A DNA stretch of 64,000 bases, from NCBI GenBank assembly GCA_945865935.1, contig CAMBFI010000002.1, positions 186,001 to 250,000 of the forward strand. The letters run 5' to 3'. The notes beneath the pieces were generated by a model that saw nothing but the letters and a program-made list of their open reading frames with translations, had not been told where the DNA came from and did no database searches. This DNA comes from Bordetella parapertussis. GTDB taxonomy: Bacteria > Pseudomonadota > Gammaproteobacteria > Burkholderiales > Burkholderiaceae_B. The first letter of the stretch is position 1. Each line of letters opens with the position of its first letter. Below, piece by piece: positions 39,330-42,173 of this stretch. The translations under genes were made by a program, and so were the position numbers.

Positions 39330-40163
39330 ATGCAACAGACCAACCGCTTGCCCAACAAAGCCGAGTTGTACCGCTTTCTGCAGACCTTACTGTCTCGCGC
39401 GGCGCAGGCCCCACACCACGGCTCTCTGCCATTGTTTATCGCTGGCCGTCGCTGCGGAACGCTATTTCCAGGGGCTGTTTCAGCCATCGCCAACATGCCC
39501 GGGGTCGAGCTTGCGGCCAATCGCGTCGATTTTGGACGCAATCACCCGACCGGCGTTGCGCTGAATAACCTATTGGCTGAAATCGCCCAAGCCTTGCGAC
39601 AGGCCGGCAAAACACCCGGTTGGCGTGGCGAATTGTTAGATGTGATGCCAGACACCCCCGACAGTGCACCGATCGGTGCAATTGAACGCGGCACCATGCG
39701 CCCACTCGGGCTGATTACACAGGCCGTGCACTTAAGCGGCTGGTCGCAAGACGGCAAACTATGGGTGGCCAGGCGCTCCCTGACCAAAGCCACTGACCCA
39801 GGCATGTGGGACACCTTGGTCGGAGGTTTGGTGAGTGCTGGGGAGCCCGCCGACTTAGCGCTCGAGCGTGAGTCGGACGAAGAGGCCGGACTCGATCGTG
39901 CGGACATACAGAATCGGTCGCCCCTGCGTAAGATCACCCGTATGCAACGCCAAATCCCAGAGGGATACCAATGTGAAGAGGTTCTAACCTGTGAGTGCGA
40001 GCTCACAGACGGCATCATCCCAAAAAATCGGGATGGTGAGGTGATGGAGATAGACTGTTTTGCGCCGAAAACGGTCTATGAAATGCTGGTGGCAGGCGAC
40101 TTTACGCTTGAGGCCTCGATCGTATTGACCGAAGACTTATGGCGCCGCGCGCCCAAAAATTAA
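39330..40163 (+). CDS. NUDIX hydrolase with DUF4743 N-terminal domain
   Basis: 277 aa. The N-terminal third (FIAGRRCGTLFPGAVSAIA) resembles the DUF4743 domain of thiamine-pyrophosphokinase-related NUDIX proteins. The C-terminal NUDIX box is complete in GLVSAGEPADLALERESDEE followed by AGL (G-x5-E-x7-REx2EExGL). It hydrolyses a nucleoside-diphosphate derivative; the substrate is not known, though this architecture has been linked to damaged thiamine forms. Its stop overlaps the end of rpoH by 4 bases on the other strand. Confidence 0.85.
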   Translation: MQQTNRLPNKAELYRFLQTLLSRAAQAPHHGSLPLFIAGRRCGTLFPGAVSAIANMPGVELAANRVDFGRNHPTGVALNNLLAEIAQALRQAGKTPGWRGELLDVMPDTPDSAPIGAIERGTMRPLGLITQAVHLSGWSQDGKLWVARRSLTKATDPGMWDTLVGGLVSAGEPADLALERESDEEAGLDRADIQNRSPLRKITRMQRQIPEGYQCEEVLTCECELTDGIIPKNRDGEVMEIDCFAPKTVYEMLVAGDFTLEASIVLTEDLWRRAPKN

Positions 40164-41044
40164 GCGCTTAGCGCCACTCGCATTTTTTTCATCGCAGCGA
40201 CCTCGATTTGACGGATACGTTCAGCGGAGACGCCAAACTCTGCCGCCAAGTCGTGCAAGGTTGCGCCGCCCTCATCTTGCAACCAGCGCGCGCGAACGAT
40301 GCGCTGTGAGCGCTCGTCGAGTTGCTCAAGCGCCTTTTCCAAACCGCTGCCATGCAGGGCGTCCGCGTCTCGCCGAGCGAGAACTTGCGCGGGATCCGCA
40401 TGGCCGTTGTCTGACAGGTAGGCAATGGGCGCGTACACGTCGTCATCGTCGTTCTGGTTTTCGAGCGATATTTCACGCCCAGACATACGCACTTCCATCT
40501 CACGTACGTCCTCTTGGCGGACTTTTAGGTTAGCCGCAATTTCGTCAACTTGACGGGGATCGAGGGTTTGCCCATCAGGGCGCATGCTACGCAAATTAAA
40601 GAAAAGCTTACGCTGCGCCTTCGTTGTGGCAACTTTTACCATCCGCCAGTTGCGGACGATATATTCATGAATTTCTGCTTTGATCCAATGCACGGCGAAC
40701 GACACCAATCGCACGCCACGCTCAGGATCAAATCGCTTAACGGCCTTCATCAGGCCAACGTTGCCCTCTTGAATCAGGTCCGCATGCGGCAGGCCGTACC
40801 CAAGGTACTGTCGCGCCACCGAAACGACTAAACGCAAATGCGACAACACCAATTCACGGGCCGCAGCAATGTCCTGCTCGTCGCGCAGACGACGCGCAAG
40901 CAAATTCTCTTGCTCAGCCGAGAGCATCGGCAGTCGGTTGACCGTCGAAATGTAGGCATCAATCGTCCCCAATGCGCCGGGGTTCGATATCGCCATTGCG
41001 AGTTGTGAAGGCTGCAGTATCAAAGCGGTAGAACTCGTTGTCAT
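40160..41044 (-). CDS. rpoH: RNA polymerase sigma-32 (heat-shock) factor
   Basis: 294 aa. Sigma-70 regions 2 (LRLVVSVARQYLGYGLPHAD, DLIQEGNVGLMKAVKRFDPE, SFAVHWIKAEIHEYIVRNWR) and 4 (VSAERIRQIEVAAMKKM) are clear, and the RpoH box QRKLFFNLR at residues 144-152 identifies sigma-32. It directs transcription of heat-shock genes. A perfect CIRCE element lies 38 bases upstream of its start (41082-41108), so HrcA probably represses it. The 3' end overlaps the NUDIX gene by 4 bases. Confidence 0.96.
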   Translation of the reverse strand: MTTSSTALILQPSQLAMAISNPGALGTIDAYISTVNRLPMLSAEQENLLARRLRDEQDIAAARELVLSHLRLVVSVARQYLGYGLPHADLIQEGNVGLMKAVKRFDPERGVRLVSFAVHWIKAEIHEYIVRNWRMVKVATTKAQRKLFFNLRSMRPDGQTLDPRQVDEIAANLKVRQEDVREMEVRMSGREISLENQNDDDDVYAPIAYLSDNGHADPAQVLARRDADALHGSGLEKALEQLDERSQRIVRARWLQDEGGATLHDLAAEFGVSAERIRQIEVAAMKKMRVALSA

Positions 41045-41081
41045 TAAACTAGCTCCTTACCTCGGAGCTTTCGATGCCATT

Positions 41082-41108
41082 TTAGCACTCTGGGCTAGCG
41101 AGTGCTAA
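41082..41108. promoter_or_regulatory. CIRCE element (HrcA operator) upstream of rpoH
   Basis: TTAGCACTC (41082-41090), nine bases TGGGCTAGC, then GAGTGCTAA (41100-41108): an exact match to the consensus TTAGCACTC-N9-GAGTGCTAA. It is in the rpoH leader region, 38 bases from the ATG, and 117 bases before the YjiK-like gene on the other side. HrcA is the known repressor bound here. Confidence 0.93.
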
Positions 41109-41225
41109 TAAGACGATTGATTTGTGTAAAAGTTCCGCAATTCTTGCGAGGGTGTTAATCTCAGCATGCTCCGGGCGCAACGCTGCCGTGATTGGTAGCC
41201 GTAACGTCCGTCCCTGGATTTGGGT

Positions 41226-42173
41226 ATGTCCGATTTAGTCAAATTTCTTTCAAAGATCCTGCTGGCCTGTCTACTCGTCATTGGTGTAGGCTGGGCGACC
41301 TACATCGGCGTGCGCTACTACCACGCTGAACAGGTGGCCTACCGATGGATTTCAGGCCTCGCGGCTAAACAAGCGGCCTGGGAGAAAAAGATTGCTGAAT
41401 CCGGCGGCAACACGCTGACTGGTTATGCTGGACCAACCGAGCCCCAAGTGGTTGACACGCAAGTGGGGGGCAAGTTCTCCGGCTTGACCTACGACCCCCT
41501 GCAAAAGCGCTTGTGGACGGTAGTTAATAAGCCCACCGCGCTGGTTGCCCTTTCAACCGATGGCCAAGTGTTGGCGACCTACCCCGTCAAAGGGATGTCT
41601 GACATCGATGGCGTGGCGTGGCTCGGGGGAAATAAAATCGGGTTAGTAAACGGGCGTCGTAACCGGGTGGTGATCACGGAAGTGCCCGCAACACCTCAAG
41701 TGCTTGATGTCACTAGGGCTTTTGCCTTAGTCTTGCGCTTCACCGAAGGTGAAGATGCGAACTATGGGTTTAATGGCCTAGGTTATGACCTCAAACGCGA
41801 TCGCCTGTACCTGTCCAAAGAGCACAGTCCGCGCGCGCTTTACCGCATTAGTGGCCTGAACAATCTACAAGCGGCTGACTCCCGAGGGCTACGGATTGAA
41901 AACATCAGTCATTGGCTCAATGATGTCCCCTTCGCGACGGACCTCTCCTCTGTCGAGGTCGATCCAACCACCGGCCGCGTTTACCTGTTGAGTGAAGAAT
42001 CCCAGCTCATCGTGCAGCTCGATGGAGACAGCGGTGATGGCAAGGGCATGCTGTCCCTTTCTACAAAAGGAAATAAGCCTTTGCCCCGCCCTGAAGGAAT
42101 CGCCACTGATGATGAGGGAAACATTTACATCGTCAGCGAGCCCAATCTCTTCTACAAGCTAAAGAAGCCCTGA
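41226..42173 (+). CDS. YjiK / SdiA-regulated family beta-propeller protein
   Basis: 315 aa from the ATG at 41226; a TTG two codons earlier is an alternative. One N-terminal membrane helix (ILLACLLVIGVGWATYIGV) anchors a periplasmic domain. The SdiA-regulated fold is seen in FSGLTYDPLQKRLWTVVNKP, MSDIDGVAWLGGNKIGLVNG, FNGLGYDLKRDRLYLSKEHS, DLSSVEVDPTTGRVYLLSEE and RPEGIATDDEGNIYIVSEPN, a propeller with metal-binding acidic residues. Function in bacteria is not established. It ends in a hairpin that includes its stop codon. Confidence 0.82.
   Translation: MSDLVKFLSKILLACLLVIGVGWATYIGVRYYHAEQVAYRWISGLAAKQAAWEKKIAESGGNTLTGYAGPTEPQVVDTQVGGKFSGLTYDPLQKRLWTVVNKPTALVALSTDGQVLATYPVKGMSDIDGVAWLGGNKIGLVNGRRNRVVITEVPATPQVLDVTRAFALVLRFTEGEDANYGFNGLGYDLKRDRLYLSKEHSPRALYRISGLNNLQAADSRGLRIENISHWLNDVPFATDLSSVEVDPTTGRVYLLSEESQLIVQLDGDSGDGKGMLSLSTKGNKPLPRPEGIATDDEGNIYIVSEPNLFYKLKKP

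Follow-up and report, generated by a model that had tools for sequence, protein, structure and literature searches.

The control of rpoH, the gene of the heat-shock sigma factor sigma-32, is known in its textbook form from E. coli, where it works through an RNA thermometer and chaperone-driven turnover of sigma-32. In the Bordetella parapertussis DNA considered here, a CIRCE element, the operator of the repressor HrcA, lies directly before rpoH. As HrcA needs GroEL for its folding and activity in those systems where this has been studied, the question is what such a repressor might do at the gene of the heat-shock activator, and on which promoter or promoters it might act. We address this question using the window, i.e., the whole stretch of 64 kb that was analysed, the genome to which it belongs (3.25 Mb in 54 contigs, 97% complete) and the DNA upstream of rpoH in related genomes.

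The palindrome TTAGCACTC-N9-GAGTGCTAA at positions 41082-41108 (no strand assigned) agrees with the HrcA consensus at all 18 of its 18 arm positions, so that the exact match claimed in the preliminary description stands. It is the sole match with up to three mismatches in the 64-kb window, while the dinucleotide-shuffled window gives 0.02 such matches on average. The gene downstream, at 40160-41044 on the minus strand and coding for 294 amino acids, is rpoH as had been stated, with profile matches of 400.8 bits to TIGR02392 (cut-off 323.1) and 415.8 bits to NF005143, and with the Pfam sigma-70 regions 1.2, 2 and 4 matched in its product. By RpoH, the nearest named loci are Alcaligenaceae-like, e.g., those of Achromobacter and Bordetella, with 75-78% identity. 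A Shine-Dalgarno sequence, AGGAG, can be read at 41053-41057 on the minus strand, and 37 bases (41045-41081) separate CIRCE from the rpoH ATG, one fewer than the 38 counted before.

The preliminary description had placed HrcA above rpoH in a hierarchical circuit, had proposed a scan of the genome for further CIRCE copies and had held that a genome with no hrcA would speak against the circuit. The gene hrcA is present, with 218 bits to PF01628 and 308.5 bits to TIGR00331 (cut-off 197.2), and no HrcA match is found in the E. coli control genome. The scan with up to three mismatches gives two CIRCEs, both exact, the one before rpoH and another at C15:20008-20034, located 65 bp upstream of a groES open reading frame; the reversed pattern used as the control gives one match per strand. 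Since the second of the two CIRCEs found lies at groES, HrcA would govern the chaperonin as well as the sigma factor that activates the heat-shock regulon at large.

If CIRCE before rpoH is an operator, it would be expected to be kept together with hrcA, and the comparison with relatives bears on this point. A CIRCE with up to two mismatches occurs somewhere in 59 of 61 genomes (the source genome and 60 relatives). For the DNA upstream of rpoH we compared 32 members of the genus, the source genome included, 108 genomes of the order and 77 genomes from elsewhere in the class, calling a CIRCE where at least 15 of the 18 arm positions agree, a score that one of 3220 shuffled upstream regions reaches. 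In the genus CIRCE stands before rpoH in 32 of 32 sequences with 17 or 18 of the 18 arm positions kept, where the scoring of 30 upstream pieces is circular in that they were cut around CIRCE itself, and a separate check of the loci places CIRCE just before rpoH in each of them. In the order sample the site is present in 95 of 98 genomes with hrcA versus none of the ten without it, the latter being spread over six families; in the class sample, drawn from beyond the order, it is present in 58 of 63 versus 2 of 14, genomes with no listed hrcA match being scored here as hrcA-negative. The Fisher values of 7e-12 and 1.3e-8, respectively, overstate the independence of the genomes, which share descent.

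The samples and the exceptions are as follows. For the order, 110 genomes were searched; the contingency table leaves out two of them that have no rpoH match (G179 and G194) and does not count the additional copy of rpoH in G196. For the class, the 77 genomes are a non-random part of the 102 non-order genomes with rpoH, consisting of the 17 best-ranked and 60 of the other 85, the rows left out being every fourth row, both G090 copies and the last four rows. Three genomes of the order have hrcA and no CIRCE reaching 15 positions, namely G044 and G175, both scoring 14 of 18, and G232, in which the match to hrcA is weak, partial and interrupted by an internal stop. In the class the same holds at rpoH for G071, G094, G122, G157 and G164, while G074 and G171 keep CIRCE with no hrcA detected. 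Thus the site is conserved with hrcA and mostly absent where hrcA is absent, with exceptions, and this pattern argues strongly for reading it as an operator; together with the presence of hrcA, it supports the proposed position of HrcA above rpoH. Two further observations concern the number of sites. In one lineage (L243, genome G068) the perfect CIRCE at rpoH is immediately preceded by another palindrome, CIRCE-like but imperfect, and HrcA operators may be arranged there in tandem. In one genus member (L024, genome G030) two identical perfect CIRCEs lie 155 bp apart, at C43:3747 and 3902, with rpoH being located on a different contig.

It could be supposed that the operator serves not rpoH but the gene on its other side, which is transcribed divergently at 41220-42173 and codes for a protein with an SdiA-regulated domain (PF06977, 205.5 bits). 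This gene is indeed conserved beside rpoH in the genus, in 29 of 30 loci. Outside the genus, however, no match to it occurs in the 700-base flanks of 11 named loci, whereas CIRCE with at least 16 of 18 positions precedes rpoH in all 79 usable named loci, drawn from the 80 loci that match the query best (L346 was left out, its flank being too short), among them loci of Bordetella, Ralstonia, Cupriavidus, Burkholderia, Chromobacterium and Nitrosospira. We thus hold an operator for the divergent gene to be extremely improbable. It is noted that this gene may have a promoter sequence of its own: the sequence AGATTAACAC (minus strand) at 41152-41161, 15 bases upstream of the sigma-E-type -35 element discussed below, is conserved in 90% or more of the 32 sequences of the genus, and its plus strand, GTGTTAATCT, resembles a putative extended -10 element of the divergent gene.

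On the minus strand at 41109-41136 we predict a promoter of the sigma-E (RpoE/ECF02) type, with the -35 element GGAACTT at 41136-41130, a spacer of 15 bases and the -10 element GTCTTA at 41114-41109, which directly abuts CIRCE. The elements and their spacing are those of the sigma-E consensus (a GGAACTT-like -35, a TCTNA-like -10 and the usual distance), and the pattern GGAACTT-N15-STCTNA has its sole exact match in the genome upstream of rpoH. The gene rpoE is present, with 301.5 bits to TIGR02939 (cut-off 236.15); the open reading frame after it resembles an anti-sigma factor gene by its position alone. No exact sigma-E consensus was found before rpoE in the source genome. Sites with one mismatch number 8, versus 34 matches of the reversed pattern; we therefore rejected a wider sigma-E regulon drawn from the genome scan, which holds no such signal. 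Since one-mismatch sites are not commoner than in the reversed control, the weight of the sigma-E reading lies in conservation.

This conservation takes two forms. Within the genus, every one of the 32 sequences has GAAC beginning 27 bases ahead of CIRCE, and the genus consensus brings out CGGAACTTT and cGTC.tA. (In one Bordetella genome of the comparison, TGAACTT and AGTCGAA immediately precede CIRCE.) Among 159 CIRCE-bearing sequences from outside the genus, GAAC begins at a distance of 15 or 16 bases ahead of CIRCE in 97 and is missing from there in the other 62, so that the sigma-E element is not universal. The CIRCE spacer opens with T-N-A in 63 of these 97 sequences, versus 18 of the other 62 and none of the 32 in the genus. 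In the 63 sequences the CTC of the first arm together with TNA of the spacer makes a sigma-E-like -10 element, CTCTNA, inside CIRCE itself. The composite GGAACTT-N9-CIRCE with TNA, with up to three mismatches, is found in 153 of 370 genomes of the class, the reversed-pattern columns being zero, and is absent in 217, among them the source genome, in which the spacing differs. When 30 composite loci were retrieved, rpoH was present in 29. In the remaining one (L312, genome G139), a match with three mismatches, neither rpoH nor groES was found within its 1.6 kb, and this case is unexplained. It is also noted that in G122 a composite match at C8:47853-47895 does not share a contig with the CIRCE-less rpoH of this genome, and possibly marks a second rpoH or another target. 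Moreover, among 30 upstream regions with CIRCE scores below 15, sigma-E-like sequences judged with hand-set patterns occur in 8, versus 0.8 on average and 4 at most over 200 shuffles.

With the two forms of the sigma-E-type promoter at hand, another reading of the palindrome can be weighed, namely, that it acts mainly in the rpoH leader as an mRNA stem-loop or stabiliser of the 5' end rather than as an operator in DNA. CIRCE could form an RNA hairpin of 9 bp, and CIRCE hairpins influence mRNA stability in some bacteria. Against this, the site is mostly missing where hrcA is missing, and the sequence kept is that of the HrcA consensus, not that of any hairpin. In addition, a transcript starting from the sigma-E-type -10 element inside CIRCE would presumably leave the first arm untranscribed. 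A role mainly in RNA is thus, in our judgement, very unlikely. A separate structure can be drawn in the leader of the source genome, where positions 41051-41069 can fold as AGCUCC-N7-GGAGCU, a 6-bp hairpin covering part of the Shine-Dalgarno sequence, and it is possible that this hairpin is a local RNA thermometer. No Rfam thermometer appears for the rpoH leader among the matches up to an E-value of 5. In the 30 of 32 genus sequences with a recognised site, the pairing of the Shine-Dalgarno sequence exceeds that of shuffled leaders in 18, with means of 0.65 and 0.66 and hence no excess, GAGG having been scored instead of GGAG in the closest clade of the window, so that the result applies to the genus outside that clade.

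To separate what belongs to rpoH from what belongs to CIRCE in general, the CIRCEs before groES in the same order can serve as the control. From 30 such loci 27 are usable, L283, L292 and L301 being dropped for having no CIRCE reaching 15 positions (an initial tally of GAAC still counted these three). At the 27 loci there is no GAAC at -15, -16 or -27, and the spacer starts with TNA in none. What is found instead is CTTGAA within 60 bases upstream, in 20 of 27 groES sites versus 6 of 191 rpoH sites, and CC-N-TA[TC] adjoining CIRCE in 18 of 27 groES loci, which resembles a sigma-32 promoter. Since the groES CIRCEs are without the sigma-E elements, these elements belong to rpoH rather than to CIRCE generally.

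A further difference lies inside and just beyond the palindrome. At the third base beyond CIRCE, 185 of 191 rpoH sites have a T, as compared with none of 27 groES sites. With this T, the second arm reads as TGC-TAANAT, which has the form of the extended -10 consensus TGnTAnnnT, and 18 bp upstream the first arm supplies TTAGCA or TTGGCA (TTRGCA), similar to a -35 element. In the window, the sigma-70-like promoter so predicted spans 41079-41108 on the minus strand, with TTAGCA at 41108-41103, a spacer of 18 bp and the extended -10 element TGC-TAAAAT, of which the hexamer is at 41084-41079. Moreover, in the rpoH sites position 3 of CIRCE is off the consensus in 62 of 191, while its mirror position 25 is so in 1 of 191; in the groES sites the two positions are off the consensus in 2 and 2 of 27. 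The symmetry of HrcA alone would make positions 3 and 25 vary alike, and the asymmetry at rpoH departs from this expectation. A related case is G183, in which hrcA is not detected: its palindrome has decayed to 13 of 18, with GAACTTT and GTGNTAAAA kept as compared with its congener G226, which has hrcA. This case, as well as the CIRCE-less regions with sigma-E-like sequences, lends support to the view that the promoter function can outlive HrcA.

By contrast, one could hold that HrcA-CIRCE control and the sigma-E promoter are real while no use is made of the sigma-70-like promoter, the asymmetry of the arms and the conservation of the T arising, for example, from constraints on the start site or the untranslated leader. 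The argument for the sigma-70-like promoter is indeed wholly one of conservation. Against this, the positions conserved are those of an extended -10 element, and the groES CIRCEs have neither the T nor the asymmetry of the arms. Note also that the T lies at a fixed distance from CIRCE and not from the GAAC of the sigma-E element, which shifts from -27 in the genus to -15 or -16 in 97 of 159 other sequences, and thus the T is not part of the sigma-E promoter. We therefore take an unused sigma-70-like sequence to be a possible but rather doubtful explanation. With the pattern and the asymmetry both being strong, a sigma-70-like promoter is probably embedded in the CIRCE of rpoH.

Taken together, we consider it likely, with good confidence, that the CIRCE before rpoH functions as an operator at which HrcA represses this gene through the sigma-E-type and probably also the sigma-70-like promoter in a GroEL-sensitive manner. 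The pathway that the sequences suggest can be described as follows. Active HrcA would bind the palindrome at rpoH. The bound HrcA would block the sigma-E-type promoter, whose -10 element abuts CIRCE here and shares bases with CIRCE in many relatives, and would probably also block the sigma-70-like promoter that the CIRCE arms make up. When protein folding is under stress, GroEL would be occupied, HrcA activity would be lost and rpoH would be derepressed, while envelope stress would add to the drive on rpoH through sigma-E. The raised expression of rpoH would then give more sigma-32 and with it the wider heat-shock response, with groESL standing under the same repressor. In a more general form, to which we lean slightly, the rpoH CIRCE of beta- and gammaproteobacteria would be a composite of an HrcA operator, a sigma-70-like extended -10 promoter with the arms as its -35 and -10 elements and, for many lineages, a portion of a sigma-E promoter, by which HrcA could gate both the basal and the envelope-stress synthesis of sigma-32. 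This composite would be ancestral in the class and lost with hrcA, only the promoters being left in some lines without hrcA. In this respect the preliminary description was incomplete: the sigma-E and sigma-70-like elements next to or overlapping the operator had escaped it, and it took as local a site that is widespread.

If this is true, the transcription of rpoH in many beta- and gammaproteobacteria with a retained hrcA is controlled by a GroEL-sensitive repressor sitting on promoter sequences, the sigma-E promoter included, and the folding state of the cytoplasm, the stress of the envelope and the sigma-32 regulon meet at one short stretch of DNA. It would then also be possible to test how the arrangement in E. 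coli originated, by comparing lineages that lost hrcA. The targeting of rpoH by HrcA has been proposed before; the overlap of promoters with the operator appears to be new, since in the open-licence PubMed Central literature we recognised, in the titles and abstract openings among the matches listed, no description of an HrcA, sigma-E and sigma-70 overlap at rpoH. The study of Permina and Gelfand reportedly treats beta- and gammaproteobacteria, and it probably contains the basic prediction of rpoH as an HrcA candidate in betaproteobacteria.

It is useful to compare this arrangement with known systems. The nearest comparison is within the same order, where the CIRCE of groESL is like that of rpoH in being the same operator with promoter-like sequence directly upstream, and is unlike it in that the upstream sequence is sigma-32-like, the T at +3 is lacking and the arms are symmetric. 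For Geobacter sulfurreducens, a prediction of the HrcA regulon places CIRCE before rpoH at -51 (PMC545781, Table 8), so that the comparative-genomic precedent mentioned in the preliminary description for betaproteobacteria is borne out at least for Geobacter. As in the source genome, the site there is the same perfect consensus, with groESL as the constant member and rpoH as an additional one; it is a prediction only, and, unlike here, no overlapping sigma-E or sigma-70 promoter is described in the parts consulted (PMC545781). Moreover, according to the same parts, hrcA-grpE-dnaKJ also carries CIRCE in Geobacter sulfurreducens (PMC545781), while in the source genome CIRCE with up to three mismatches is found at groES and rpoH only. 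As regards the promoter, in Bordetella bronchiseptica SigE transcribed the promoter of fam, the rpoH homologue, in vitro (PMC3490749), in a paper from which the word HrcA is absent and which, as far as the portions seen go, does not discuss CIRCE. An RpoE-type promoter before rpoH, as predicted in the source genome, is thus shared with rpoHP3 of E. coli and with fam of Bordetella bronchiseptica, as described in the accessible part of that study (PMC3490749).
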